Part shown: piece after piece, positions 813-64,000 of the stretch
Layout of the letters: each line of letters starts with the position of its first letter
Position numbering within the stretch: the first letter of the stretch is position 1
Source of the DNA: Artemia franciscana
Taxonomy: Eukaryota; Arthropoda; Branchiopoda; Anostraca; Artemiidae
DNA length: 64,000 nucleotides
Assembly: GCF_032884065.1 (NCBI RefSeq)
Contig: NC_088864.1
Location: 16,186,409 to 16,250,408 of the forward strand
Direction of reading: 5' to 3'
Translations under genes and position numbers: made by a program
Notes under the pieces: generated by a model
The model's database searches: none
Told to the model about the DNA's origin: nothing
The model's input: the letters and a program-made list of their open reading frames with translations, nothing else

Positions 813-40697
<39,885 letters not shown>

Positions 40698-44951: not shown

Positions 44952-45155
44952 ATGAGATGCTCTAATTCTAACAGCAGAAAATATAACTAGACGTAAATTA
45001 CAGAAAATAACAACAGCTGCTTCTAGTTGCTGTAGTTGCTATAGAACTATTTTATGAGATGCTCTAATTCTAACAGCAGAAAATATAACTAGACGTAAAT
45101 TACAGAAAATAACAACAGCTGCTTCTAGTTGCTGTAGTTGCTATAGAACTATTTT
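44952..45155 (+). repeat. Perfect 102-bp tandem duplication
   Basis: Two adjacent copies (44952-45053 and 45054-45155), each running from ATGAGATGCTCTAATTC through CAACAGCTGCTTCTAGTTGC to ATAGAACTATTTT. I see no difference between them, so the event is recent or an assembly duplication. Confidence 0.9.
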
Positions 45156-46775
45156 ATTCACTTTAACATACATTCTATTTTATTCTAATTTATCCTATTC
45201 TTTGACATTTTCTTTTTACATTTTTTAATTTAGATGTCTTCCTTTTTGGTAAAATATTCATTTGATTGTACTTTTTATTTTTTGATTGGCCCTAGTTCCG
45301 CTGTTTTTACAATATTTTTGAAATTTTGCAATTTTTCAATATTGTTTATTTTTTTGTAATTGGTTTTTAATAGTTGAGTTTTTAGTAAGTTTTTGATTAT
45401 TAAGACTGTTTTTTTTTGCAAACAAGTTTAAAAAAAGGTTTCAGTTACTTTGTGTGGTCTCTGTTAGATTTTACTGAAGACGCCTACCGCCAAAAAGTAT
45501 TCAATTAAATTTAGGTTTATCAAGGGGATCTGTCCGTATTACCGCAAAAATCAACTAGGAGGCGAAAATCTTCAGTTTCGATTTCAGCTTCGATTCAACT
45601 TAAAAAAATATACTACTAAATTTAATTATATAAAATAAATAAATTGAAATAAAATATAAAATTATACCTGTTTAGAAAAAAATGTACTATAGAGAAGTTC
45701 AGAAAAGGAGTTCCTGAACTTGAATTTAATTTTTTTTTTTTATTCATACCCTTTTAGTAGGTCATTAAAACCATTAATATTTCAGACAAGTAGCACAGTT
45801 GACGCATTGTAATTTGATTTAATTATAAATTATTAAGAAGCTTAAAATATAAAACGTACAAAAAATCTGCTAAACTGGTCAGGTAGAAGAAAGTCACGAT
45901 ATTTTTATCCAATTTTTAATATTGCACCAAAGATCACAAACAAGTAAAAAGAGATTTAAGGGAGAAAAAACAAAGGATATGTCTATCGATAATTTTGAAA
46001 ATGAATTTTTATGCTCACAGAAGTTCTTTAGTTTTTTTTTCTAGCCGGGTATATTCGCAGTGGCTTAATTACTACAGGAGTAGTTTCATCTGCTGTGTAG
46101 ATGAAAACAAATGTGTTTTAAGTACTACATAAAAAAAACCTGTTTTGCCCACTGGACCCCTCTTAGGTCTATTCATAACTAAAACTACGATTTTCTAGAT
46201 TTCTCTTTTCGTTACTTCAAAATTGTGAATTTATTTTCCATGAATAAAGATAAATACATGAAGTCATAATTTCGTCAGTGTTACCAAATTCAACCGTCAA
46301 AATAAGCAAGCAAAAACAATTAGTTGAATTTGACAACGCTTTTCATTATACAAAAATTTAAATAAAAAAAAATAGCTCGCAACTGAGAAAAAGTTGATAA
46401 AGACGAGTTGTGAGGACGGCTGCTGATTCCTCACTTTCCTGGTGTTCATTAAAAAGTTTGATTTATGTTGGTGAAAGCATTGATAGTCTGATAACATTGA
46501 AAGTACAATAGTTATAGCCAGTTGGCAATTGAAAGAGAGAAAGAGAAAGAAAGAAATCTATTTATTAAAAAAATAGAATGAACAATATATAGAATTGGTT
46601 GGATATTAAACTCTAAAGAACCAGGGTGGCTAAAATAAGCTCAAAACTCCTCACTAAAACAACAATACCATAAATGGTATAACTCATTTTCTTAATAGGT
46701 TACTTAAGAGTTTTAAGTATTTTATTTAAGAAACCCCTTTCAAAATATTTGAACTGGCAATTTTAAATGTTTATA
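45156..46775. other. Unassigned AT-rich sequence
   Basis: Long A and T runs. Around 46140-46235, ACTGGACCCCTCTTAGGTCT and GATTTTCTAGATTTCTCTTT resemble 7890-7965, a weak dispersed repeat. No gene recognised. Confidence 0.4.
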
Positions 46776-47104: not shown

Positions 47105-48804
47105 GATTAAATAAAAAAAACAAGTTTTTTTAACTGAAAGTAAGGAGCGACATTAAAACTTAAAACGACCAGAAATTACTTCGTATATGAAAGAGGCTGC
47201 TTCCTCATCAACGCCTCGCTCTTTACGCTGAAGTTTGACTCTTTCTCTCAATTCTTCTTTTTAAAACAGTAAAAAACTTTAGCGTAAAGAGCCGGGCGTT
47301 GATGAGGAAGCAGCCTCTTTCATATACGAAGTAATTTCTGGTCGTTTTAAGTTTTAATGTCGCTCCTTACTTTCAGTTAAAAAAACTTGTTTTTTTTATT
47401 TAATTTCTGGACGTTTTTGAATCAATGCATGTTTTGATTTTGGCTCTCCACAGAGGAATAATTAAAACAAAATTTGCATTTTTTTGGGTAAATGGCTTTC
47501 TCATAATTTTGATCGAATGATTTTGAGAAAAAAAGAGCGGGGGAGGAAGCCTAGTTGCCCTCCGATTTTTTGGTTAATTAAAAAGGCAACTAGAATTTTA
47601 AATTTTTTACGAATATTTTTATTAGTAAAAGATTTACGTAACTTATAAATTAGCTTACGTAAAGAACTTTTGTATTCTCATATTTTTATTACATATATGA
47701 GGGGGTTCCCCCCTTGTCTGATCCTCGCTCTTAACACTAAAGCTTAAATTTTGTCCCAATTCATTAAGAATGACCCCAGAATCACAAAAGCCGTATAATA
47801 AATAGTTGAAATTACTAAAAATACTTTAGCGTAAAGAGCGAGGTATTAGGAGGATGTGAGCCCCTTAAATGGGTAATAATTTCTGTTTGTTTTAAGTTTT
47901 AATGCTGCTCCTTACTTCCAGCTGAAAGAACTTTTTCATATTTATTTTTTCATTTTTTTTTTAAATAATGCTAGTAAATCCTGCGCTCCCTTCATGGAGA
48001 TTGTCTTCCCCCATGACAAACTATCGATGGAAAGTTCCCCCAGCATATCCCCCTATTCTCAACCTCTCCCCCAACCAAAAAATCCTCCTGAAAACGCCTG
48101 TACACTTCCCAATAAACATTACTATATGTAAGCACTGTTCAAAGTTTGTAACTTGTTGCCCCTCCCACGGGGACTGTGGGGGAGTAAGTCGTCCCCAAAG
48201 ACATAGTTATAAGGTTTTTTGACTACGCTGAATAAAATGGCTATCTCAGAATTTTGATCTGTTGACTTTGGTAAAATAATTAGCGTGGGAGGGGGCCTAG
48301 GTGCCCTCCAATTTTTTTGGTCATTTAAAAAGGGCACTAGAACTTTTCATTTCCGTTAGAATGAGCCCTCTTGCAACATTCTAGGACAACTGGGTCGATA
48401 CGATCACCCCTGGGAAAAAAAAAACAAACAAAAAAACAAATAAACACGCATCCGTGATCTGCCTTCTGGCAAAAAAATACAAAATTCCACATTTTTGTAG
48501 ATAGGAGCTTGAAACTTCTACAGTAGGGTTCTCTGATACGCTGAATCTGATGGTGTGATTTTCGTCAAGATTCTATGACTTCTAGGGGGCGTATCCCCCT
48601 ATTTTCTAAAATAACGCAAATTTTCTCAGGCTCGTAACTTTTGATGGGTAAGACTAAACTTGATGAAACTTATATATTTAAAATCAGCATTAAAATGCGA
48701 TTCTTTTGATGTATGTATTGGTATCAAAATTCCATTTTTTAGAGTTTTGGTTACTATTGAGCCGGGTCGCTCCTTACTACAGTTCGTTACCACGAACTGT
48801 TTGA
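47105..48804 (+). mobile_element. Foldback element, copy 5, full length
   Basis: 1.7 kb. Starts GATTAAATAAAAAAAACAAG, followed by the long hairpin (47108-47401), a middle part with a second CTTTAGCGTAAAGAGCGAGG block, a C-run-rich part, ACTGTTCAAAGTTTGTAACT, AGGAGCTTGAAACTTCTACA, then TTGAGCCGGGTCGCTCCTTA, the palindrome CAGTTCGTTACCACGAACTG and TTTGA. TAAGGAGCGAC recurs in both orientations at the start, at the hairpin exit and at the end. No coding capacity, no recognised transposon class. Confidence 0.85.
47108..47401. repeat. Long hairpin of foldback copy 5
   Basis: Arms of about 125 bases around a loop of about 40. Left arm: AACTGAAAGTAAGGAGCGAC, AAAACGACCAGAAATTACTT, GAAAGAGGCTGCTTCCTCAT, CTCTTTACGCTGAAG. 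The right arm is its complement, and both share the private variant GACCAG/CTGGTC where other copies have GAACAG/CTGTTC. Confidence 0.9.
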
Positions 48805-49240
48805 AACAATCATCCACAAACAAAAGAATAACCGCAGGAATGGTTTGTTATTAGCTTAACGCCAGAGGAATCAACAGGACACTAGGACATAACGCCAGAA
48901 GTTAAGGACTTGGGGTTGCTAGAAGATGTTGTAAATCTTCCAGAGAGCTTTTACTATTCTCCTTTTATTCTTAAAAGTGTTTTGTATAAATTAGTGTTTT
49001 GTTGAGAATAGCCCTTGGATAAAGGGTCCAAATATTCATTTGAAGTTTGAGCAAGTTTCACTGTCTTAAAAAAATCCCTATTGTTTTACCTGTTGTTTGT
49101 GTTTTTGATGCAAGGGCTACGTGGCTTTCGTGGCTATTTGCGTAAAAATAAACATAACGAGGCAAGCATGAGCGGAAATTCTCTGCTTTTATTCATCACC
49201 CAAATCCTTTGCCGTCATCCTAAAAATTTTCTTCGTCAAA
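48805..49240. other. Unassigned spacer ending in a 14-bp repeat
   Basis: No gene recognised. ATAGCCCTTGGATA at 49008-49021 also occurs at 47090-47103, just left of foldback copy 5. Confidence 0.5.
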
Positions 49241-49246
49241 AATAAC

Positions 49247-49482
49247 TGGTCTTTGCGCTGGGAATACCTAAACATATTTTTCAAGTTTTCGCTATCCCGC
49301 AAACTTTATTTTGCGGTGTCAAAACAGCATATTGTACTTGTATGATATGCGTCCTACCCAGTGTTCTTCTAATATGATTCTGACGCTAAATCCTAACGAA
49401 ATAAACCGAAGTAAGATCAAATATAAACTGGTCTTTGCGCTGGGAATACTTAAACATATTTTTCAAGTTTTCGCAATCCCTT
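49247..49482 (+). repeat. ~55-bp direct repeat flanking a 125-bp spacer
   Basis: ACTGGTCTTTGCGCTGGGAA, TACCTAAACATATTTTTCAA and GTTTTCGC at about 49247-49303, and again at about 49427-49480 with one or two changes. The second copy runs directly into the truncated foldback element at TCGCAATCCC. Confidence 0.85.
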
Positions 49483-50685
49483 GCTCTTTACGCTAAAGCT
49501 TTTAATTGTTTTAAAAAGTAGAATTGTGGCAAAGAGTCAAACTTTAGCATAAAGAGCGAGGGATTGCGGAGGGGACAACCCATTTCACATACGGAGTAAT
49601 TTCTGTTCGTTTTAAGTTTTAATGTCGCTCCTTACTTTCAGCTAAAAAAATTAATTTTTTTTATTTAATTTCTGAACGTTTTTGAATTAATGCATGTTTG
49701 GTTTTGACTCTCCGCACATAAATTATTAAAATGAAATTTTTATATTAATTCTTTTTTTGGCTAAATGGCTTTCTCTTAGTTTTGATCAGACGATTTTGAG
49801 AAATAAGGGGTGGAGAAGGAGGCCTAGTTGCCCTCTAATTTTTCGGTTACTTAAAAAGGCAACTAGAACTTTTAATTTTTAACGAACGTTTTTATTAGTA
49901 AAAAATATACGTAACTTAAGAATTAACTTACGTAACAAACTTTCATAACCTTTTATTTTTATTATGTATACGAGGGGGTTTGTACCCTCGTTAATACCTC
50001 GCTCTTTACACTAAATCTTAAGTTTTGTCCCAATTCTTTATGAATGACCCCTGAATCAGAAAGGCCGTAGAATAAATAGTTGGAATTACTAAAAATACTT
50101 TAGCATAAAGAGCAAGGTATTTATATCCTTCTAAATACCTCGCTCTTTATGCTAAAGTATTTTTCGAACCCCTCATATGCGTAATAATCTCTTTTCGTTT
50201 TAAGTTTCAAAGCTACTTCTTCCTTTCATTTGAAAAAACGTGTTCATGTTTATTTTTTATTGTTTTTTTTTATAGTAATGCCAGAGAATTCTGCGCCCTT
50301 TTCATTGGATTTTTTTCCCCATGACAGATTCCTCTAAGGAAAGATCCTTCAACATAGCCCCCTCTCCTCAGCCCCACCCCAAAACAAAATAAAATACCCC
50401 TGAAAACGTCTGTACACTTCCCAATAACCATTACTATATGTAAACACTGGTCAAAGTTTATATCTTGCAGCCCCTCCCCCAGGGATTGTGAGGAAGTAAG
50501 TCATCCCCAAAGACATAGTTATTATGGTTTTCGACTATGCTGAACAAAATGGCTATCTAAAAAATTTGATCCGTTGACTTTGGGAAAAAATGAGCGTGGG
50601 AGGGGGCCTAGATGCCCTCCAAGAGTTTTGGTTACTATTGAGCCGGGTCGCTCCTTACTACAGTTCGTTACCACGAACTGTTTGA
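49472..50685 (+). mobile_element. Foldback element, copy 6, truncated and internally deleted
   Basis: Begins inside the left hairpin arm (CAATCCCTTGCTCTTTACGC), so the full left arm and 5' end are missing. The right arm and middle are complete, with a second perfect hairpin at 50093-50163 (TACTTTAGCATAAAGAGCAA and partner). It then jumps from GATGCCCTCCAA to GAGTTTTGGTTACTATTGAG, losing about 330 bases against copy 8. Ends in the standard palindrome and TTTGA. Confidence 0.85.
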
Positions 50686-51445
50686 TCATAATAGCTAGGC
50701 TGCATTAATTCAAAAGGCAGTAGGTAACAAAACATAAATTTGATCAGAGAAGTGCAAACTGAAAGACATGTTCTGGGTTATTTATTTCTTATTACTAGGT
50801 GCAGTAATTGTTCTAAATTAATTGTTTTTCAGACTTTCAAGGTATGATAAAACAGTCTTGACGTCGTAAACTACGAGTTCCAATTGTTTTTGTTAGTAAG
50901 AAAAGAAGATGAAACTTGTTTTCGAATAAAAAAGCTAAGCATCTAACGAAATTAAATAAATGAAATGAAAGAAAATGCATTAAAGTGACTTTTGGAAACT
51001 GATGTCTTTGAGGGTATGGGATGTCTAGCAAGGTTTCTCGGAAATGTTACATAAAATGCTTCGAAATAATGCTGAAAAGCATAAATCCAATGATAAATAT
51101 CCGTATTTTGGGGCGGGGGATTCAGATTGATTAAGGGTGAGTTTAGTTTATGACAGTAAAAGTAGGAAATATTTTAGTCAGTGGCGTAGGCTATCTACAT
51201 TACCTAGTTATGACTCTGCTGAGTTTATAAAAACGAGCCTAACGCTTACAACTTGAAAAAAAGGGGCAGTTCTTCCTTGAAAAATTACTTCTAAACACCA
51301 AAATTCTTGTTAGTTTCATCATAATCTCCGTAAATGCTTATCATTTCATAGAGGGAGAATAAATCCCCATTTGTGAATATCCCATTTGAAGAAAAACTAA
51401 GAAAGGTATTTTGTGTCAGAAAATGTTTTTGATGTGGGTACTCTT
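50686..51445. other. Unassigned spacer
   Basis: No gene recognised between two foldback copies. The 64-residue minus frame at 50837-51031 has no family signature. Confidence 0.4.
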
Positions 51446-53054
51446 GAAGAAAGGGGCTGCTCCTTCTTCAACGCCTTGCTCTTTGCACTAAAGTTTGACT
51501 CTTTCTCTCAACTCTACTTTTTAAAACAGTAAAAACTTTAGCGTAAAGAGCAGTGCGTTGAAGAAGGAGCTGCCCCTTTCATATACGGGGTAATTTCTGT
51601 TCGTTTTAAGTTTTAATGTCGCTCCTTACTTTCAGTTAAAAAACTTGTTTTTTTATATTTAATTTCTGAATGTTTTTTAGTTAATCCATGTTTTGATTTC
51701 GGCTCTCCGCAGATGAATAATTAAAGCGAAATTTGCATATTTATTTATTTGGCTAAATGGCTTTCCCATAGTTTTGATCGAATGATTTTGCGAAAAAAGG
51801 AGGGGAAGGAGGCCCAGTTGCTCTCCAATTTTTTGGGTACTTAAAAAGGCAACTAGAACTTTTAGTTTTTACGAACGTTTTTATTAGTAGAAGATATACG
51901 TAACTTATGAATTAGCTCACGTAACAAACTTCTATGTTCGTATGTTTTTATTACGTATATGAGAAGGTTCGCCCACTCGTCAATACTTCGTCAATAACTC
52001 TTTGCATTAAAGCTTAAATTTTGTCCCCTGAATCACAAAGGCCGTAGAATAAATAGTTGAAATTACTAAAAATCCTTTAGCGTAAAGGGTGAGGTATTAG
52101 GAGGAGGTGAACCACTTATACGCGTAATATTTTCTGTTCGTTTTAAGTTTTAATGCTACTCCATACTTCCAGTTGAAATTTTTTTTTCATATTTATTTTT
52201 CATTGTTTTTTTTTAAATAATGCTAGAAAATGCTGCGCCCCCTTTATGGAAATCTTCTTCCCCCATGACAAATTTCTCCATGGAAAATATCCCCCACATA
52301 GCCCCCTCTTCTCAACCCCCCTCCAAACCAAAAAATCCCCCTGAAAACGTCTCTACATTTCCCAATAACCATTAATATATGCAAACACTGGTCAAAATTT
52401 GCAACTTGCAGCCCCTCCCATGGGGACTGTGGGGGAGTAAGTCGTCCCCAAAGACATAGTTATAAGATTTTTCGACTATGCTGAATAAAATGGCTATCTC
52501 AGAATTTTGATCCGACTACTTTGGGAAAAAATGAGCATGGGAGGGGGCCTAGGTGCCCTCCGATTTTTTCGGTCACTTAAAAAGGGCACTAGAACTTTTC
52601 ATTTCCGATCGAATGAGCCCTCTCGCAAAATTCTTGGACCACTGGGTCGATACGATCACCCCTGGGAAAAAGAAAAAAAAAAAAAAAACAATTAAACACG
52701 CATCCGTGATTTGTCTTCTGGCAAAAAATACAAAATTCCACATTTTTGTAGATAGAATCTTGGAACTTGTACAATAGGGTTCTCTAATACGCTGAATCTG
52801 ATGGTGTGATTTTCATTAAGATTCTATGACTTTTAGGGGGTGTTTCACCCTATTTTCTAAAATAGGGCAGATTTTCTCAGGCTCGTAACTTTTGATGGGT
52901 AAGACTAAACTTGATGAAACTTATATATTTAAAATCAGCATTAAAATGCGATTCTTTTGATGTAACTATTGGTATCAAAATTCCGTTTTTAGAGTTTTGG
53001 TTACTATTGAGCCGGGTCGCTCCTTACTACAGTTCGTTACCACGAACTGTTTGA
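51446..53054 (+). mobile_element. Foldback element, copy 7, truncated in the left arm
   Basis: Begins within the left arm at GAAAGGGGCTGCTCCTTCTT, keeps the rest of the hairpin (partner GAAGAAGGAGCTGCCCCTTT) and the whole 3' part to CACGAACTGTTTGA. The arm-tip sequence differs from copy 5 (GGGGCTGCTCCTTCTTCAAC against GAGGCTGCTTCCTCATCAAC), but both arms carry the change. Confidence 0.85.
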
Positions 53055-53111
53055 TTAAATTTCTGTATCACTTTATCAAGGTCAATTTGCACTTCTCTTT
53101 CAATTGCCAAC

Positions 53112-53480
53112 AGTACAAGTAAAGATAATCTTTCTTACCTCGTGGTCTTGCGGCAGTACATCTTCAACCATCGAAGGCAAGAAAAAGATCTTTCGAACGG
53201 CACAGAATTCATAGGAATTCAGAGGAAACACACATTTAACCGCTTTCTACGCCAAAACTTTCCACTAAAATAATGTATCGTTCTAACTTGGTCTTTTGCG
53301 ATTACTACTTTTCAATCTTTATGAAATATCAAATTTTATTTTCAAACTATGAAGTGAAGATAATTTTTCTTACCCCGTGGCGTTGAGGCAGTATATCTTC
53401 AACCATCGAAGGCAAGAAAAAGATCTTTCGAACTGCGCAGAATTCATATAATACACACATTTCAAGCATTTTTCAGCCAA
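53112..53480. repeat. Direct repeat pair with ATCTTCAACCATCGAAGGCA
   Basis: Two copies (about 53112-53255 and 53350-53480) share AAAGATAAT, TTTCTTACC, CGTGG, GCAGTA, ATCTTCAACCATCGAAGGCA, AGAAAAAGATCTTTCGAAC and CAGAATTCAT. On the minus strand each reads KIFFLPSMVEDVLPQDHE (second copy slightly changed) up to a perfect donor context GTAAGAAA, so this might be a duplicated exon. I cannot name the family. Confidence 0.6.
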
Positions 53481-54837
53481 AACAGATGCTCTCTCTAGAA
53501 TGTTTTTAATTTTTAAATCTTCAACTCAGTAAAAGCACTGTAACTCAGACATGCATTGTTCAAAATCGAGCTTATAGTACAAAGCTTACACTGTCCTTGT
53601 TCATTTCGGTTGTACCTATCATTACACATTAGTTGTCCAAAACGTCCTAACTGTTCTCTTCTAGCCTACTTTCAATATCTGAAGGTACAACATAGATAAC
53701 AAAATACAAAACTGTATTTTCGAAAAACTCTAGCGCTGTCTCATATGGAACAATTGTACCCCCACATAATTTCACTGGAGCTTTACGTTGCTGGGGCAAT
53801 TCAGGACCTCTAAAACCATATTTATTAGCTAATTCTGAGCTTTAAGGCAATCATAAAGTATCATATGACACACACAACGTGTAGATTGTTAAAAAAAAAC
53901 TTGTTTTTTTCATGCAATATTTATCTTTAATATCTTGAATATTTAATATCTTTTTTATTTGATTTCAAGGGCTGAAACAAGAGTGACACATGGCAAAATA
54001 CATGGGAAACATATAATTTGGGTTATATATTTACATACTAAGGAGGGGTGTGTGAACTATAGTGTTGCTGCAGTCAAATGTTTTAATTACAATTATCCTA
54101 CATATTATGAGGTAGGTTTAAGACTTGTTTTTGAACATGTTTGTTTCTGAACTACCTCAATTATATACTTGAAAAAAAATTAAGGAGGGGGTAACCTTTT
54201 CTTCTTTTTTTTCATGAAAATACCCAATAAAAAATTATTTTTGAGATCAAGCGATGGGGGCAAATCCAGAAGGAAAATCCCCCCGTGATTGGTGCCACTG
54301 GAACTATTTTCAGTAGCAACAGCATTGTAGTACCATTCAATACTTGGTTTTAGGTTCTGAGCCCTCTGTAGCTCGGAATCCCTTCGGCACTGCCCTACGG
54401 GATAGCCTAGACCAAGTATTAAATAATTGTTTAATCTAGCTTAAAACGTAAAATTAACATACTATAGTCTAATTTAGATATTGAAAACAGTCGAACTTGT
54501 TTCTCACTATAATCTATTTCAAAAACTGGACCTGCTAACAAGAGCAAAGAAGAAGATGACCTATTTCCTTGATGATTAGACTTCAAAGGCGGTATCTTTG
54601 TATAAATATTAATGTGGAAGCACAATGGACCACTATTTTTTGCATTTTTTTACATTAAAAACAAGCTGGGATTAATTTTTAAAAATATCTGGTCGAAGTA
54701 AAGAGTGAATTTGCAGCTTAAAACGAGTGACAATTTTAAAGTTACTTAATGAATCATAGTTTTTCTCCAAATTACTAGGGGACAACTGCCCCTCCCACCT
54801 TTCCCCCCAAAGGACGCCATTGGGTGGGGGGTAAAGT
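53481..54837. other. Unassigned sequence with a weak repeat fragment
   Basis: No gene recognised. Around 53965-54110, GTGACACATGGCAAAATACA, GGGAAACATATAATTTGGGT and a GGAGGGGTGTG stretch resemble part of the 43900 repeat. Confidence 0.4.
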
Positions 54838-55112
54838 ATAGCGGGTCTGTATGCCTAATGTCCTAGGTACAATTATTCTGCATATTATGTATTAAGAATT
54901 GTTTTCTAACTTCACACTATCCAAATACTTTACCCCTCGCCCGCTAATGTGCAGATATATTGCCCAAATTATATATATTTTCATCTATTCTGTCACGTCT
55001 CCTTAACCTTGTCTCACTCTAAGCTGAAAGAAACTAACGGAAAAACCGGATCCCATACCGCGTCAATGAATGAACAACTTAAGCGGTATGGCGTTTGTCA
55101 TACAGGTACCCA
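54838..55112 (-). repeat. ~280-bp dispersed repeat, inverted copy
   Basis: Reverse complement of 43900-44178. Conserved blocks on its own minus strand: CCGCTTAAGTTGTTCATTCA, GTGACAGAATAGATG, GTAAAGTATTTGGATAG, CAGAATAATTGTACCTAGGA. Both copies end in a GTAAA/TTTAC-G-run context that may be terminal repeats. Confidence 0.8.
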
Positions 55113-55912
55113 ACATATTTTTTAGTGTCTAGACCCCGTTGCCTAACTATAGACCCCCCCTAGACCTTTGTGCCACGTATTCAGTTATGGCGATTTTATT
55201 TCAAATGGCTGGATGCCTTCTGAATAACTACTTACAATTTGTTTTAAAGTACACGAGTTGACATTCGTCTAAAAAAATCCATTACAAGACGTTTCAAATT
55301 GTCTCATCATATAATCTCAAAGTGCTGAAATTCAGTGTCAGAAGAATTAATAGACAAAAAAACTACCATTTTCACCCCTGATAGGAAAAGTATGAAATTC
55401 AATGTTACACGGTAGCACGTGTTTTTATCTTATTCTTTTCATCAGTCAACCCCTCGAATTTCACGGTGCTATGGATTTAATTTCCAAAGCCGCTTTTACT
55501 TCTTGTATTTTTAAAAAGAGATTTCCTGTAGAAAACATTTGGCCAGCGCATCTCCTCCGGCCAGGGGTACAACAGACAGTGGACGCTCTGCTTTTGGGGG
55601 GTGGGTAACTGAAGCTGTTAATTACCTACCTCATTGGCATATGGTACTTTGACAAATGCAATTAAACAAGCACTAGGTATAATAAAACACCCATTGGTGA
55701 GCGAGGGTTGAGTGCAAATTATATTAACTAGTTTTAATTATTTAAGACCTATTAATTTATCGTCTGCTTGATATTAAAAGGAAAACATAGTCCTTATGGG
55801 GAAACGAGCTTTAGATTCCCTTGAATTTTTTTATATATAATTAACTTCACTCCTATGTTAGAGAAATTTGTATGAACAAAAGAAAAATTAAGCAAACTTT
55901 TTACGGTTGTAT
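55113..55912. other. Unassigned sequence
   Basis: No gene recognised. The 68-residue plus frame at 55402-55608 has no family signature. Confidence 0.4.
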
Positions 55913-56026
55913 GAAACAGTTAATGGTAAGGAACTGAATGTAAGGAGCGACAGGGCTCAATAGTAACCGAAACTCTAAAAAAACAGAATTTGGATATCAC
56001 TAGATATATCAAAAGAATTGGCTGAT

Positions 56027-56114
<88 letters not shown>

Positions 56115-56512
56115 AGTTTCATTAAATTTAGTTTTACCCATTAAAGGCTACGTGCCTGAAAAAAAACTTCACTGATTCTCGAAAAAGGGGGGAATACCCC
56201 TTAATAGTGAAGAAATCTTCTCAAAAATCAAATCATCAGATTCAGAGTATCAGAGCATCCTACTGTAGAGGAGTCAAACAACCATCTTCAAAAATTTTTA
56301 ACCAAAAGAAAGATCATGGATGCTTCTTTATTTATTCTTTGCCCACGGGTGATCGCATTGAGCCAAAGACCCTAGAATATCTAAAAAGAGCACTTTCACA
56401 CGGAAATTTAGTCTCAGAGTCCTTTTTAAACGGCTAAAAAGATTGAAGGGCATCTAGACCCCCTCCCAAGTCCCCTTTTTACCAAAGTCGTCCGATCAAA
56501 ATGTTATGAAAA
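55913..56512 (-). mobile_element. Foldback element, copy 8, 3' half, with internal (TA)n
   Basis: Reverse orientation. Degenerate terminal palindrome near 55915-55940, then TAAGGAGCGACAGGGCTCAA, TAGTAACCGAAACTCTAAAA. The ATATATA word of the consensus AAATATATAAGTTTCAT has grown to an 83-bp (TA)n array (56030-56112). It continues TCAGATTCAGAGTATCAGAG, GGGTGATCGCATTGAG and CCCCCTCCCAAGTCCCC, ending where Penelope-like sequence starts. Confidence 0.8.
56030..56112. repeat. (TA)n microsatellite inside foldback copy 8
   Basis: About 83 bases of TA at the position of a short ATATATA word in all other copies. Confidence 0.95.
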
Positions 56513-56894
56513 ATTAAGCAAAGAGGAAACGGGTTTTAATTTCGACAAAGCAGTGAACAAAAAATAAAATATAAAAACAAAACTACACTTTAATTAAAAA
56601 AATTTAAATAATCCGAATATTTCAGCCCCACGTCTGGGAGCCTTTCTCAACGGTAATAATATTAAAATTAAATTGGTCTTTTGCCACCCGTAGGCTAGAC
56701 GTAAATAATTTCTTAGACCACACTGCTTTTCCATTTACAAAAAATTAAGCAAAGAGAAAACGGATTTTAGTTTCGACAAAACAGTGAACAAAAATTAAAA
56801 TATAGAAACAAAACTACACTTTAACTAAAAAAAATAAAAATAATGCGAATATTTCAGCCCCACGTCCGGGAGCGTTTCTCAACGGAAAAAAAAA

Positions 56895-57245
56895 TTACAA
56901 ACGACAAAAAAGAAGAAAAGAATGTCCTCCTCTAACTTGATGATAAAAATTATCTCTAAATTTGAAGTAATTAGTATACCTGCTAGTTATTTTAACCAAA
57001 TATAATATAGATTTTATCTCAATACCTGCAGATAATTCTTCTTTCTCATTTTTATGTTCATCAAGTTTTTTTTTGGATAAAACAAATACGGGTTTATCGA
57101 AAGGTATACACGTATTCATTGATTTTATATCAAAACCAAAAAGTCCAGATTCATTTGATATTTCAATATTTTCAAGTTTATCTTTTAAAAATTCCGAGTT
57201 TTTAATATACAAATTTTGAAGATATAATAAAGGTTTAAGTGTCAT
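56895..57245 (-). pseudogene. PLE reverse transcriptase, motif A region, truncated
   Basis: Frame of 116 residues: LFGFDIKSMNTCIPFDKP is motif A (usual form SFDVxSLFTNIPLD, first Asp kept), and YTNYFKFRDNFYHQVRGG matches the YFxFxxxxYxQxxG block just before the AMGSP motif B. The sequence then becomes unrelated (HSFLLFCRL, stop), so motifs B and C are absent. Confidence 0.8.
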
Positions 57246-57850
57246 TGCTACCCATTTTTCGATTTTTTTCTGTTGGCGAGTTCATTGTTGATACTAATAG
57301 GTCTTAGAGGAATACCTGTTTTATGTATTTTTGGCAAGCCATATATTCTTGGGCAGACTGATTCCCTCAGAAGAACTTGTAATACATCTGTGGTGTACTT
57401 GGATTAGTTTTGAGGCCTTCTAAGTCCTTTCTTAATTTTGCTACATACGATTCAGTTTGGTCTGAGTTAGGTTTTTAGTATGTTGAAAGATCGTTTAGAA
57501 TTATTTCTATTTTACTATCATAATCATCTTTTTCTAGGATTACTACCGTATTGCTCTTATCAGCTTTCGTTATTATTGGAGAATCATCTTTTTTAAAATC
57601 TTTCAAAATTTTTGTATCTTTGTTATTAAGATATTCTTGAAAACTGCCAAAAATTTTTTTAAATATTAACGACTTCCAGTATTAAATCATCCACACTACA
57701 AATATCTTTTGAGAACACGTGAATCCCTGTCTGAATCTTTGAAATTATTTCTTCTACCGGTACTTTTTTAGGATTTAGTCCGAATTTTATACCTTTTTCA
57801 AGGTTTTCCTTTTGTTCTTTGGTTAACTCCTTTTTGCTTAAATTAACCAT
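57246..57850 (-). pseudogene. PLE N-terminal region and start of reverse transcriptase
   Basis: Three short frames in order: NLSKKELTKEQKENLEKGIK, ILKDFKKDDSPIITKADKSN then TVVILEKDDYDSKIEIILND, and VCPRIYGLPKIHKTGIPLRP then ISINNELAN. The DK(S/G)xxVVILxKxDY and PRIYGLPKIHKxGxPLRPI patterns are diagnostic of Penelope-like reverse transcriptases. Several stops and frameshifts. Confidence 0.85.
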
Positions 57851-57884
57851 ACATGGTCTTAGGAAATGCTTAGGTTTATATGTT

Positions 57885-59642
57885 GATTAAATAAAAAAAA
57901 CTAATTTTTTTAGCTGAAAGTAAGGAGCGACATTAAAACTTAAAACGAACAGAAATTACTCCGGATATGAAATGAGTTGTCCCCTTCGCAATCCCTCGAT
58001 CTTTACGCTAAAGCTTTTAATTGTTTTAAAAAGTAGAGTTGTGGCAAAGAGTCAAACTTTAGCGTAAAGGGCGAGGTATTGCGAAGGGGACGACTCATTT
58101 CATATCCGGAGTAATTTCTGTTCGTTTTAAGTTTTAATGTCGCTCCTTACTTTCAGCTAAAAAAATTAGTTTTTTTTTATTTAATTTCTGAACGTTTTTG
58201 AATTAATGCGTGTTTGGTTTTGGCTCTCCACACATAAATTATTAAAATGAAATTTGTATATTAATTCTTTTTCTGGCTAAATGGCTTTCTCTTAGTTTTG
58301 ATCAGACGATTTTGAGAAATAAGGGGTGGAGAAGGAGGCCTAGTTGCCCTCCAATTTTTCGGTTACTTAAAAAGGCAACTAGAACTTTTAATTTTTAACG
58401 AACGTTTTTATTAGTAAAAAATATACGTAACTTAAGAATTAACTTACGTAACAAACTTTCATAACCTTATATTTTTATGATGCGTACGAGGGGGTTTTTA
58501 CCCTCCTTAATACCTCGCTCTTTACACTAAATCGTAAGTTTTGTCCCAACTCTTTAAGAATGACCCCTGAATCAGAAAGGCCGTAGAATAAATAGTTGAA
58601 ATTACTAAAAATACTTTAGCATAAAGAGCAAGGTATTTATCTCCTCCTAAATACCTCGCTCTTTGTGCTAAAGTATTTTTAGAACCCCTCATATACGTAA
58701 TTATCTCTGTTCGTTTTAAGTTTCAATGCTACTTTTTCTTTTCATTTGAAAAAACATTTTCATGTTTATTTTTCATTGTTTTCTTATAGTAATGCTAGAG
58801 AATCCTGCGCCCTTGTCATTGAATTTTTCTTCCCCCATGACAGATTCCTCCAAGGAAAGATCCTCCAACATAGCCCCCTCTCCTCAGCCCCACCCCCAAA
58901 CAAAATAAAATCCCCCTGAAAACGTCTGTACACTTCCCAATAACCATTACTATATGTAAACACTGGTCAAAGTTTGTAACTTGCAGCCCCTCCCCCAGGG
59001 ATTGTAGGGGAGTAAGTCATCCCCAAAGAAATATCTATTAAGGTTTTCGACTATGTTGAACAAAATGGCTATCTCAAAATTTTGATCTGTTGACTTTGGG
59101 GAAAAAATGAGCGTGGGAGGGGGCCTAGATGCCCTCCAATTTTTTTGGTCACTTAAAAAGGGCACTAGAACTTTTCATTTCCGTTAGAATGAGCCCTCTT
59201 GCGACATTCTAGGACCACCTGGTCGATACGATGACCCCTGGGGAAAAGAAAAAAAACAAAAAAACAAACAAACAAACAAATAAACACGCACCCGTGATTG
59301 TCTTCTGGCAAAAAATACAAAATTCCACATTTTTGTAGGTAGGAGCTTGAAACTTCTACAGTAGGGTTCTCTGATACGCTGAATCTGATGGTGTCATTTT
59401 CGTTAAGATCCTACGACTTTTAGGGGGTGTTTCCCCCTATTTTCCTAAATAAGACAAATTTTCTCAGGCTCGTAACTTTTGATGGGTAAGACTAAACTTG
59501 ATGAAACTTATATATTTAAAATCAGCATTAAAATGCGATTCTTTTTATGTAGCTATTGATATCAAAATTCAAGTTTTTAGAGTTTTGGTTACTATTGAGC
59601 CGGGTCGCTCCTTACTACAGTTCGTTACCACGAACTGTTTGA
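57885..59642 (+). mobile_element. Foldback element, copy 9, full length, nested in the PLE
   Basis: 1.76 kb with both ends (GATTAAATAAAAAAAACTAA and CACGAACTGTTTGA). The hairpin spans 57888-58195; both arms carry private variants (CTCCGGATATGAAATGAG and its complement). A second hairpin lies at 58608-58678 (CTTTAGCATAAAGAGCAAGG). It splits the PLE coding region and inserts in the opposite orientation, so it is younger than the PLE. No ORF. Confidence 0.9.
57888..58195. repeat. Long hairpin of foldback copy 9
   Basis: Arms of about 130 bases around a loop with AATTGTTTTAAAAAGTAGAG. The arms match nearly throughout, including ACTCCGGATATGAAATGAGT and CCCCTTCGCAAT. The homologous hairpin of copy 2 has different tip sequence. 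Confidence 0.9.
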
Positions 59643-59644
59643 TA

Positions 59645-60115
59645 TATTTTATTTTTCATATTCCCTTTTTAATTGCAAAAATTGTTGGTTTAACCTTTCC
59701 CTCAATAAACTCAAAACATGTTCAAAAGAATTTTTGGAAATTGATATAATTTATTAGAAATCATACGCATTAAGAACCGCAAAAAATATTAAAAATATAT
59801 ATATATTTCTTTTACAACTTGTGATCTCTGGAAACGTTTATCTTTCAACACATGGTCTATATTTAGTAAATTTACCTTTCTCGTGTGATTAGTCTCATTA
59901 TATGTATTTAAATGATTCTTGAAACGAAACGATTTTGGAATAATTTTACTTACTTTACACTTTTCTAAAAACTTTTGTTGTGTAATTATATTGGCATGTT
60001 TTTTTTTGCTAAATTCAAAAATATTAAAGTTGAATTGGTGTTTTGCCACCTGTAGGCTAGACGTGAATAATTTCTTAGACCACACTGCTTTTCTATTTAC
60101 GAAAAATTAAGCAAA
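59645..60115 (-). pseudogene. PLE N-terminal fragment
   Basis: Minus frame HANIITQQKFLEKCKVSKII, PKSFRFKNHLNTYNE. The FLxxCxxxxxIPKxxRxK pattern fits the N-terminal part of Penelope-like proteins. The preceding WSKKLFTSSLQVAKHQFNFN part is repeated at about 56650-56735 as part of the terminal block. It ends where the foldback element interrupts. Confidence 0.65.
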
Positions 60116-60262
60116 GAAAAAACGGGTTTTAATTTCGACAAAGCAGTGAACAAAAAATAAAATATAAAACAAAACTACACTTTAACTAAAAAAAAATTAA
60201 AATAATCTGAATATTTCAGCCCCCGTCTGGGAGCCTTTCTCAACGGAAAAAAAGTTACAAAC

Positions 60263-60872: not shown

Positions 60873-61092
60873 TCAAACAGTTCGTGGTAACGAACTGTAG
60901 TAAGGAGCGATCCGGCTCAATAGTAACAAAAACTAAAAAAAATGAATTTTGATATCAATAGCTACATCAAAAGAATCGCATTTTTGCCTTATTTAGGAAA
61001 ATAGGGGGAAACACCCCCTAAAAGTCGTAGGAACGAAAATGACACCATCAGATTCAGTGTATCAGAGAACCCTACTGTAGAAGTTTCAAGCT
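60873..61092 (-). mobile_element. Foldback element, copy 10, cut by the RTE-like insertion
   Basis: Reverse orientation: TCAAACAGTTCGTGGTAACG, TAAGGAGCGATCCGGCTCAA, then GTTTCCCCCTATTTTCC and CCTACTGTAGAAGTTTCAAG in complement. It stops at GTTTCAAGCT, the point where the retrotransposon tail begins. The rest of this copy should lie right of the window. Confidence 0.85.
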
Positions 61093-61107
61093 TTGACTTA
61101 ACTTGAC

Positions 61108-61440
61108 TTAAGGCTCCTGCCGCATGGGGTGCGGCGTAGAGAGCTTCGCAACTTGACTTCTCCAGGCGGACCGGTCTGCTGCTAAATGAGGCGCCTCGTC
61201 GACAGCAATGTTGGCCATCACCAAGAAGTTGTCGAGGCTGTCTTTCCACCTTGTCCGAGGTCTGCCCCTCGGGCGAGACCAGCCATGGGCTTTTGGGTCG
61301 AAGTCGTACACTATTCGGGCTGGCGTTGATGTCGGCATTCGTAGGAGGTGTCCGAACCATCTGAGAGACCTCTGCGCTATCTGGACGGAGAATGGCACCT
61401 GGGAGGTGAGAGTAAGCAACCTTGCGTTGCTAACAAAATC
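61108..61440 (-). pseudogene. C-terminal region of the RTE-like element
   Basis: Continues the reverse transcriptase protein in another frame: DDFVSNARLLTLTSQVP, RSLRWFGHLLRMP, RPRGRPRTRWKDSLDNFL, and HPMRQEP with a TAA stop at 61108. The RWxGHxLRM and GRPRxRW patterns are the usual end of this class of LINE protein. The 312-base frame has no natural start of its own. Confidence 0.85.
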
Positions 61441-63214
61441 ATCCCCACCGGAATCCCTCGATCCGGCGAAGCTGTTTCGTCTGACAGACGTCTATCATTT
61501 TAAGGATGGTTGATTTGAGGGGCCAGGTTTCCGCCGCGTAGAGCAGGACGGAGCTTACGGATGCGTTATAGATTCGCATTTTCGTACGCCTTGAGATGTG
61601 CGGCATTCTCCATAGACTGTTGAGTCTACCGACGATGGAAGAGGCTTTCGATATTCGGCTGCATACCTCTTCGTCTACGGAGCCATCATTGGACAGCACA
61701 GAGCCGAGGTAAGTGAAGTTTTTAACGACTTCAACAAGTGTTCTGCAGACAGTTATGGTATCAGGGTGCGAGACTGGACCTGGGGGTTCAATTGCCATAA
61801 TCTTAGTTTTGAGCCAGTTGATTATCAGCCCCACTTTTGCTGCCTCTTCCTTCAGGACTTCCAGAGCGTCGGTCAGCTGGTCGATTGAGTCGGCAACGAG
61901 AGCAAGATCGTCTGCGAAGTCCGCATCCGTCAGAATGCGATCTCCAAACTGCAGACCAAAGGGCAGGCGATTTGTAGTTCTTGTCATCACATAGTCTATC
62001 ACACAATTGAACAATGCCGGGGCGGCGGCACACCCTTGGCGAACGCCAGTTTTGATATTGAATGTCGTGCTCCGTTTTCCGTTGACTTGGACGCAACTCT
62101 CGGTCTCTTCGTACAGCTTTTCAAAAAGCTTGCAGTATTTATCTGGTAGACCCGTCGATCTAAGTATTAGCCAAACAGAGTTGCGATCAACGGAGTCAAA
62201 AGCAGCTTTGAAGTCTACGAAGGCCACGTATGCGTTCCTCCTGAATTCTCTAGTTTTCTCAATTAACTGCCGCATAGTGAAGATTTGTTCGACAGTGGAC
62301 CTCCCTGGCATAAATCCGGCCTGCTGAACTCTCCTTTTTCTTCGGAGGATACTCGTGCATCTGTCTAGCAGGGTCATGGCAAAGAGCTTTCCAGGGACTG
62401 AGAGAAGGGTTATACCTCTGTAATTAGAGCAGATGCTCTTGCTCCCCTTTCTCTTCCAAAGGGGCAGGATTATGCCAAGTCGCCAGTCCTTCGGGACCCA
62501 TTCTGTGCGCCACACCACGGAAAACAGCATTTGCAGCCAAAGTAACATCGCCGGTCCAGCATACTTCAGGAGCTCAGCGGATACTCCGCATACGCCTGCC
62601 GCTTTGTTGTTCTTTAGACGTTTCAAAGCAGAGTAGATTTCTGCTGTCGTGAAGGAAGTCTCTGGTTCGTTTGACGGCACTTCCTGAGTGCTGGCAGCTA
62701 GGCGTGCGAGTTCCTGGTCAGTCTGTGCTACAGCATCGGCATTGAGGAGACTTGAGAAGTGGTCTTTCCATCGACTGACCTGAGCGGCCTCGTCACTAAG
62801 TGGCTGGCCGTCCGCAGAGACAACAGATGCAACTGAGGGGGCTTTGTCGCTTGTGAGGTCACGGAGGTGCTTGTAGAGGCTCCCGACGTCCCCTTTCATG
62901 GCTGCGCCCTCCAGCTCGTTTGCCTTCCTTTCCACAAACAGTTTCTTGTCTCGCTGTATCAGCTTGTTGCGGACACCATTGAGGCGCCTGTAGGTCGGCA
63001 TGTCGCCCAGAAGCCTTGCCTTGCGTCTCTGCTCAATGACGTCAAGCGTATCGAACTGAACCCAGGACTGAACCCGCTGACTCCAGGACATTCTTCTTAA
63101 ACGAGATCCATGCGTCCTCAGAACTTTCAAATGGCAGGAGTGCGTCGAAGCGGTTCGAGACATCAATGGCATACTTGGACCGTATCTCTTGATCGGAGAG
63201 ACGAGAGACATCAA
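61439..63214 (-). pseudogene. Reverse transcriptase of the RTE-like element
   Basis: Open frame of 591 residues; homology starts near FDTLDVIEQRRKARLLGDM, so the first 50 or so residues are an out-of-frame shadow of the endonuclease end. Reverse transcriptase blocks: CSNYRGITLLSVPGKLFA, QAGFMPGRSTVEQIFTMRQL, motif A VAFVDFKAAFDSVDR, motif B GVRQGCAAAPALFN, motif C DFADDLALV, then NWLKTKIM and NFTYLGSVLSNDG. The three catalytic Asp residues are present. The thumb ends LLYAAETWPLKS and RRIEGFRWG, where a stop occurs; a change in the GGGG run at 61443-61446 shifts the frame. Confidence 0.92.
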
Positions 63215-64000
63215 TCTTGGTTGGTCTAGGTTGCGAGCGCTGGGCTTGGAGTCTCAGTCGCATATTAGCTACAACGAGGCGATGGTCAGTGTTACCAATC
63301 TCGGCTGACCTGTACGTCCTGCAGTTACTAATCGAGGATCTCCATCTCTGTGAGACAATGATATAGTCGATCATTTTTTTGGTACAGCCATCGTTGCTGT
63401 ACCATGTGTATTTGTGGATATCCTTCCTTGCGAACAGCGTGTTCGTAATGACAAGGTTATGCATGCTGCACAGTTGAAGGAGCCTTAGCCCATTGTCATT
63501 TAGAGGGTCCGGAATAACTGGTCCGATGACTTGCCGCCATAGGTCGTGGTTGTCGCTCACTGTTGCATTCATATCACCCAAAAGGATGACAATATCGTGG
63601 GGGGATATCTTGGACAGTTCATTAGCCAGGGCAGAGTAGAAAGTTTCTTTTGCTTCGTCGTCGGCTTCATTTGTCGGAGCATAGCAGACAAGGACTGTCA
63701 TTTTTCCTTGCTTATGACTCAGTCGAGCATTAGCTATTCTATCCGAGACGGGAGTAAATGACAGTAGACACTTTATGGACTTGTTATCAAGTAGTAGTCC
63801 GACCCCATTTCTCCTAGTCGTTGTCTGTCCAGACCATAGAAGGTGGTATCCCTCACCTATGGGATCAGTCCCATTCCCGACTAGGTGGGTTTCTGTTATT
63901 CCAGCAATAGAGATGCGGAATCGCTTCAGTTCCATCGCCAGAAGCGTCTTTGCTCCGGGAAAGTTCAATGTCAATACATTCCAGGTGGCAATCCGGAGGC
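63042..64000 (-). pseudogene. Endonuclease domain of the RTE-like element
   Basis: About 320 residues of an exonuclease III-like DNase that nicks target DNA for reverse transcription. Seen in order: WNVLTLN, AGITETHL (metal-binding Glu), LVCYAPTNEADDE, VILLGDMNATV (Asp and Asn), HKYTWYSNDGCTKKMIDYII, and GNTDHRLVV (catalytic Asp-His). All key residues are kept. The frame ends SVLGSVRYA and stop at 63042, where it should continue into the RT frame, so a one-base change near 63060 separates the two. The ATG at 63974 is not a reliable start, since homology extends upstream of it. Confidence 0.88.

Follow-up and report, generated by a model that had tools for sequence, protein, structure and literature searches.

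Concerted change between the arms of a long 5′ hairpin in a non-coding mobile element family of Artemia franciscana

A family of non-coding mobile elements of 1.2–1.8 kb, dispersed through a 64,000-nucleotide (64-kb) stretch of the Artemia franciscana genome (NCBI RefSeq assembly GCF_032884065.1, contig NC_088864.1, positions 16,186,409 to 16,250,408 of the forward strand; hereafter the window), opens with a long hairpin whose two arms change together between lineages of the family, and in settled copies the arms mismatch to the extent expected of drift. An initial annotation of the same DNA had reported ten copies, and self-BLAST of the window, by which we compared the family, found family sequence at 10 of these 10 places; copies are named here by the start positions that it gave. 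The stem strings that it quoted, including private variants (GACCAG/CTGGTC in 47105, CCGGAT/ATCCGG in 57885), were likewise found in both arms.

Results

Anatomy of the family

A full copy opens with hairpin arms of ~130 bp around a loop that measures ~40 nt in five copies and reaches ~90 nt in 32203; folded as DNA, the 5′ hairpin of copy 47105 (47107–47404) has an energy of −146.9 kcal/mol (z −34.5). Four copies have the 5′ end in common (47107+, 57887+, 18306−, and 32205+), and the 3′-terminal 39-nt sequence is kept in seven, four of them exactly and three (33393, 60873, and 55912) with 1–6 differences, while 17651 has lost all of it but the final 10 nt. Copies 47105, 49472, 51446, and 57885 carry a second, truncated hairpin ~290 bp behind the first (47404 to 47692 in 47105) and look like fusions of two units; by self-BLAST, the segment 47490–47605 recurs at 48235–48352.

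None of the 12 reading frames of at least 120 codons in the window lies inside a family copy. Neither Rfam at its gathering threshold nor ARAGORN returned a match on the window, and exact-pattern scans gave no match to the family 3′ end and hairpin in viral contigs or to the 3′ end and one stem string in genome contigs.

The two arms change together between lineages

Arms were counted in six copies, namely 47105, 57885, 17651, and 32203, which have full left arms, together with 51446 (45 columns) and 49472 (27 columns); copies 5735, 25885, 55912, and 60873 were excluded. Left arms were aligned to reverse-complemented right arms and the columns were classed for all 15 pairs of copies, with a "clean" set defined by removing the outermost and disturbed stretches (arm-alignment columns 1–19, 25–45, 59–66, and 93–96). 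Over all columns inside the element, within-copy mismatches numbered 4/129 in 47105, 5/129 in 57885, 5/45 in 51446, 2/27 in 49472, 21/127 in 17651 (inflated by a local expansion), and 25/127 in 32203; the corresponding clean counts were 3/96, 4/96, 5/45, 2/27, 6/96, and 17/92. The right arm of 17651 contains a local tandem expansion of ACTTAAAACGAAC at 18024–18078 that its left arm does not have.

Over re-pairings of the left and right arms of the six copies the mean mismatch was 17.4%, whereas the true pairing gives 9.7%. Counting the latter, 3 of the 720 possible pairings reach so low a value (on clean columns, 2 of 720), and for the four full copies the true pairing ranked first of 24. In trees the arms grouped by copy and not by side, with the small exception that the left arms of 17651 and 49472 paired together, and a left-arm clade was rejected (p = 5.5e-10 with 12 arms and 4.6e-8 with 8 arms). 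Between 47105 and 57885, 17 of 129 columns were concordant, that is, the arms of each copy agreed, and one was arm-specific; this last is the outermost base, where the left-arm base belongs to the host on the reading of the 5′ end adopted here. Independent arms predict 0.34 concordant columns for this pair, with a maximum of 4 in 20,000 simulations.

In the remaining pairs, concordant to arm-specific columns stood at 12:1, 15:0, and 4:1 for 47105 against 17651, 32203, and 51446; at 11:0, 9:0, and 9:0 for 51446 against 57885, 17651, and 32203; at 15:0 and 11:0 for 32203 against 57885 and 17651; and at 4:0 for 49472 against each of 47105, 51446, and 32203. Within one subfamily the counts were 2:1 (57885–17651), 0:0 (57885–49472), and 0:1 (49472–17651). 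In most of the other differing columns one arm of one copy had changed.

The shortened unit-2 hairpin serves as an internal control

The second hairpin was compared over arms of ~50 nt (27 in 49472 and 57885, in which the right arm is interrupted) around a loop of 60–80 nt; 32203 was included in the alignment and left out of the pair counts. Within-copy mismatch was 15/48 in 47105, 15/49 in 51446, and 5/26 in both 57885 and 49472. Like arms of different copies differed by 4/53 (left–left) and 0/27 (right–right) between 57885 and 49472, and by 13/51 and 9/50 between 47105 and 51446. Arm-specific to concordant columns numbered 5:1 (47105–51446), 5:0 (57885–49472), and 1:0 in all four mixed pairs. 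These arms read as independent, so the column test is able to detect independent arms where they are present. Co-evolution accompanies intact long arms, and the shortened hairpin escapes it.

Arms drift once a copy has settled

The initial annotation held that arms match within a copy and differ between copies, which applies between subfamilies and not inside the subfamily formed by 57885, 49472, and 17651. There the bodies differ by 7.2–7.6% and the within-copy arms by 4/96, 2/27, and 6/96 on clean columns, such that arm divergence within copies is about that between copies, a pattern that the annotation had named as contrary to its claim. The same is nearly so for 32203, with arms 18% apart within the copy versus 14–21% from those of others in the longer comparisons or 21–33% on clean columns; between subfamilies the two divergences are not equal.

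In the four older copies (17651, 49472, 51446, and 32203) the arms have drifted by 6–18% on clean columns, and after insertion they drift at about the rate of the body. Settled copies are therefore not being corrected, and equalisation belongs to the spreading lineage. In 57885, private concordant columns (3/129, 2.3%) and 4 mismatched stem positions across two 128-position arms (1.6%) sum to 3.9%, close to half of what separates its body from those of its sisters (7.3% and 7.6%). For 47105, 5/129 private concordant columns (3.9%; for two of the five, columns 110 and 122, the comparison is with the right arm of 51446 only) and 3 mismatches over two arms (1.2%) sum to 5.1%, as against half of 11.6%. 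Although these sums come from small numbers, the agreement of private matched changes plus half the within-copy mismatch with about half the body distance fits unbiased copying between arms in the spreading lineage, followed by drift.

That arms are copied from each other, as the initial annotation had proposed, is well supported by the rejection of the left-arm clade, the concordant columns, the unit-2 control, and the loop inversion described below. Of the mechanisms suggested with it, equalisation before or during transposition fits these data, and gene conversion that goes on between arms after a copy has settled in the chromosome is disfavored. The latter, which we regard as very improbable, would account for copy 47105, with only 3 stem mismatches despite a body 11.6% from its nearest relative, but arms in 17651, 49472, 51446, and 32203 have drifted about as expected.

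An inverted loop and a new inverted copy point to template switching

The loop of the first hairpin is inverted between {47105, 51446} and {57885, 49472, 17651}, with 46–49 identities of 53–55 only when one of the two is reversed. By eye, the orientation in 47105 resembles that in the old copy 5735, so the opposite orientation seems derived. Unit 2 of copy 49472 contains a 33-nt stretch and, 8 nt further on, an inverted copy of it with 1 mismatch; the same scar occurs in 57885 at 58606–58681 with more changes, where the inverted copy measures 24 nt and has 1 mismatch.

Template switching between inverted repeats produces homogenised arms and inverted spacers, according to the portion of Abraham and Hazkani-Covo (PMC8604942) available to us. 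The accessible parts of this and related work on quasipalindrome correction (PMC8794818, Monttinen and Loytynoja; PMC6649704) also describe spacer and loop inversions and palindromes that vary between species while their arms stay identical; they treat the process in genes, RNAs, and mitochondria and not as a recurrent trait of a spreading transposon. The arm homogenisation and spacer inversion seen here are mostly explained as the footprint of this known mutational process. A described mechanism thus matches the arm pattern, and a literature search of titles and abstract beginnings, with most subscription journals outside its coverage, found no described family of this form.

Compensatory selection, which we consider unlikely, would require the 5′ hairpin to be needed, either as DNA for a transposase or as RNA, with a mutation in one arm being followed by its match in the other and only matched elements spreading. 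Pairing indeed persists as the sequence changes, and selection, too, would leave inserted copies to drift; compensatory changes have been reported, in the parts of these papers that we could consult, in two Helitron2 elements, within their small 5′ hairpins (PMC3627910), and in the DINE-1 3′ stem (PMC2374699). A G.U pair in plus-strand RNA is preserved by 15 of the 37 clean within-copy mismatches, versus 9 transitions that do not preserve it, so selection on an RNA fold may contribute. However, concordant changes accrue at about the body rate, although compensation in two steps should be slower, and 6 of the 17 concordant changes between 47105 and 57885 are transversions, for which no G.U intermediate exists. 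The inverted loop and the new inverted copy require a copying or exchange event in any case; selection for pairing alone explains neither, but it may also act.

The ends resemble those of rolling-circle elements

In copy 47105 the 13-bp sequence AGTAAGGAGCGAC is placed 32 nt inward of the 5′ end, and its exact inverted form, GTCGCTCCTTACT, 26 nt inward of the 3′ end (0 of 2000 shuffles); the 3′ repeat is directly followed by a 9-bp stem, which stops 4 nt short of the terminus. The termini read TTAA at the 5′ end and TTTGA at the 3′ end. Taking TTAA as the start of the element, we find host GA before 5 of 6 five-prime ends, 49472 being the exception, and TGA before 4 of 6, while T follows 7 of 8 three-prime ends.

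Two sites could be compared with their pre-insertion state. Copy 32203 sits within one member of a pair of ~150-bp direct repeats (75% identical), and the empty site reads ACTCC-TAAC-AGCAGG versus ACTCC-TGA[element]TAGCAGG when filled. Copy 57885 lies in a Penelope-like reverse transcriptase gene whose relative P0121 (74% identity over 78% of the query) was the only one of nine aligned Penelope-like relatives close enough for the insertion point to be read. P0121 reads NI-S-TYK at this site, and the window has NI on one side and STYK on the other when the host TGA is counted. Since the serine in the window needs the host TGA, that TGA pre-existed the insertion and no longer duplication was made. 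Both sites are compatible with no duplication or with one of the TGA type, and neither has a long target duplication.

Several copies are 5′-truncated: the break lies within the left arm in 49472 and 51446 and within the body in 55912 and 60873, and 5735 retains little of its left arm. Upstream of truncated copy 49472, a 64-bp stretch (49236–49298) is repeated at 49417–49480 with 94% identity, reaching the truncation point, which suggests a copying event at the 5′ junction.

According to the accessible portions of Bao and Jurka 2013 (PMC3627910), Helitron2 has its 5′ repeat 0–2 bp from the 5′ end and its 3′ repeat 20–30 bp from the 3′ end, right before the 3′ hairpin, and 5′-truncated Helitron2 copies of Chlamydomonas carry 7–19 bp duplications. 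Non-autonomous Helitron2 elements are like the family in that the 5′ repeat forms a 5′ hairpin with sequence downstream, the first base is T, the 3′ repeat (at 26 nt here) is followed by a 3′ hairpin, and 5′-truncated copies exist; they insert behind a fixed short motif, as most copies of the family appear to do. The family differs in its more internal 5′ repeat, its hairpin arms of ~130 bp, and a (T)GA motif in place of TTTT. DINE-1/HINE elements (Thomas 2014, PMC4067079; Yang and Barbash 2008, PMC2374699) are likewise non-coding, with 12–15 bp subterminal repeats, an inverted repeat beside the 5′ one, and a 3′ stem-loop in which compensatory changes distinguish the stems of different species; they make no target duplication, and the family makes no long one. 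In contrast, their target is TT or T-rich and their 5′ inverted repeat is short, and the parts of these accounts open to us describe no arm co-evolution of a long 5′ hairpin. Bacterial IS200/IS605 elements such as ISDra2 (PMC2806898, as far as its accessible text goes) transpose as single strands, have a subterminal hairpin, and insert 3′ of TTGAT. Copy 57885 stands behind TTGA and its 3′ end reads TTTGA; the likeness to these bacterial elements is one of anatomy only.

Other features do not fit. Insertion in TT, as in Helentron-associated HINE/DINE-1 elements, was rejected on the A|T junction behind (T)GA in most copies and on the P0121 serine, and a canonical Helitron (Helitron1), with 5′ TC and 3′ CTRR, on the 5′ TTAA and 3′ TTTGA. 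A cut-and-paste foldback element or miniature inverted-repeat transposable element would have terminal inverted repeats at its extreme ends, and the shared repeats here are internal and unequal in position. The initial annotation had considered the family unplaceable; its ends resemble those of non-autonomous Helitron2/HINE rolling-circle elements, and from this anatomy it is built, and probably works, like them. We have not filed it in either class because its 5′ repeat position and target motif differ and no autonomous partner was seen.

A LINE lies against the 3′ end of one copy

A long interspersed nuclear element (LINE) at 61111–63998, 92–97% identical to P0001 from a metagenome, extends to the end of the window. 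Its match from Artemia franciscana is 56% identical, and a scan of viral contigs with its protein gave no match. Its stop codon is followed by tandem TTAAGTCAAG, and the last ~220 bp of the family begin ~15 nt after the stop; the frame 60989–61429 extends from the LINE into the 60873 fragment. This tail differs from copy 57885 at 8/220 positions, versus 17/299 between 57885 and 47105, and is thus nested in the family, which favors a copy beside, or split by, the LINE. The tandem TTAAGTCAAG could be the LINE's own short end, with the LINE in or beside an element copy.

The family might instead be a LINE-dependent retroposon that inserts by target-primed reverse transcription via a 3′ tail shared with this LINE, its arms being equalised in single-stranded complementary DNA. 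The position of the family 3′ end just behind the LINE stop, several copies that keep the 3′ end without the 5′ end, and TGA on both sides of insertions are in favor. We hold it to be quite improbable, given that the tail is nested in the family, that TTAAGTCAAG could be the LINE's own end, and that insertions have no poly-A and no long duplication, at most TGA/TTGA(T). Moreover, the hairpin breaks (49472, 51446, and perhaps 5735) fall in the left arm and not where a reverse transcriptase first meets the stem, and a 5′/3′ inverted repeat is not expected of a retroposon.

Coordinates and neighboring sequences

Table 1 Features of the hairpin family in the window.
Feature	Position	Strand	Remark
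Full-length copy 47105, two-unit form	47107..48804	+	
Left arm of 5′ hairpin, copy 47105	47107..47236	+	
Right arm of 5′ hairpin, copy 47105	47274..47404	+	98% complementary to left arm
5′ subterminal inverted repeat AGTAAGGAGCGAC, copy 47105	47139..47151	+	32 nt from 5′ end
3′ subterminal inverted repeat GTCGCTCCTTACT, copy 47105	48766..48778	+	26 nt from 3′ end
3′ stem-loop, copy 47105	48779..48800	+	9-bp stem, 4 nt before 3′ end
Unit-2 truncated hairpin, copy 47105	47692..47872	+	Arms not concerted; internal control
Full-length copy 57885	57887..59642	+	Splits Penelope-like reverse transcriptase gene; loop in opposite orientation to that of 47105
Copy 17651	17651..18306	−	Full 5′ hairpin, large internal deletion
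Copy 32203	32205..33393	+	Single-unit, oldest full copy, inside one of two ~150-bp direct repeats
Empty site, uninterrupted paralogue of 32203 target	33460..33605	+	
Copy 49472	49472..50685	+	5′-truncated within left arm; internal deletion in body
New 33-nt inverted copy in unit-2 right arm, copy 49472	50091..50164	+	8-nt loop, 1 mismatch
Copy 51446	51448..53054	+	5′-truncated within left arm
Copy 5735, old, diverged	5735..7231	+	Left arm mostly absent; outer limits approximate
Body fragment (25885)	25915..26177	+	
Copy 55912	55912..56502	−	5′-truncated, contains (AT)n tract
60873 fragment, family 3′ ~220 bp	60873..61092	−	Directly behind LINE open reading frame

A helicase-end fragment is present in three copies with (AT)n tracts at 8465–9694 and 11696–11997, two of them in perfect inverted orientation (arms 8506–8718 and 8916–9128, 100% complementary). 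The helicase-like fragment at 9476–9694 matches 42 short proteins, 17 of which have PF02689, which we take to be a helicase family, including one from Artemia franciscana (92% over 53% of the query); a Pfam search of the fragments themselves gave no match. On the minus strand, a GC-rich hairpin next to CTAG resembles a canonical Helitron 3′ end. Self-BLAST detected no part of the hairpin family between 7.2 and 17.6 kb, so no link is shown between these fragments and the family.

The Penelope-like reverse transcriptase gene (minus strand, 56511–57886 and 59643–60106) has stops and frameshifts and is split by copy 57885; a related ~150-bp repeat occurs three times (56500–56700, 56740–56891, and 60017–60260). 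Exon-like glycosyltransferase pieces are scattered over the minus strand at 756–35000, with PF00535 at 21838–22110 and PF02709 at 14206–14454; the pieces at 756–1061, 16734–17015, and 34370–34585 had no Pfam match and are, we assume, parts of a polypeptide N-acetylgalactosaminyltransferase-like gene. Near-identical tandem duplications lie at 9684–10208 (261-bp unit, 97%) and 44952–45157 (102-bp unit, 100%).

Discussion

We favor, with a probability of about 0.6, a non-coding element that transposes, most likely, as a DNA single strand like Helitron2/HINE elements, and whose arms are equalised by template switching. The palindrome would become single-stranded during transposition or during lagging-strand replication of source copies, its arms would pair, and the polymerase would switch template from one arm to the other, overwriting one arm with its partner and occasionally inverting the loop; a hairpin with shortened arms would escape such switching. 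A stronger form, in which arm rewriting is part of the transposition cycle, with the palindrome re-templated from one arm at each single-stranded stage and insertions born matched, strikes us as possible but rather doubtful. We lowered snap-back priming at each insertion as an explanation, since four full left arms end at the same base and random ends would be expected.

Several observations weigh against the favored account, among them the G.U-keeping mismatches given above. Equalisation is imperfect, with one left-specific base common to 17651 and 49472 and another to 47105 and 51446, and the sample is six copies from three or four subfamilies, with few independent events. The unit-2 control is not explained by loop size alone: 32203, with its loop of ~90 nt, still has concordant changes in its arms, which makes arm length the likelier factor. 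As to transposition, the TGA on both sides of insertions could also be read as a 3–5 bp duplication, and no 7–19 bp duplication was seen by eye at the 5′-truncated copies 49472 and 51446. The 5′ repeat lies 32 nt inside, versus 0–2 in Helitron2, the target is (T)GA versus TTTT or TT, and no Rep/helicase partner with the family's ends was seen within the window.

Template switching between inverted repeats has so far mostly been inferred from scattered single events. Here one family combines an intact palindrome whose arms co-evolve with a shortened one whose arms do not, and thereby offers a small natural test of hairpin rewriting. A genome-wide set of copies would measure the effects of arm length and loop size, separate template switching from compensatory selection, and date insertions from the mismatch between their arms. 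If arm rewriting is part of the transposition cycle, mismatches between arms would be a clock for the age of an insertion, and matched changes would likewise time how long the lineage had been spreading. The family also gives reason for caution, in that matched changes in transposon hairpins, which have been taken for structure-preserving compensation, can arise by copying.

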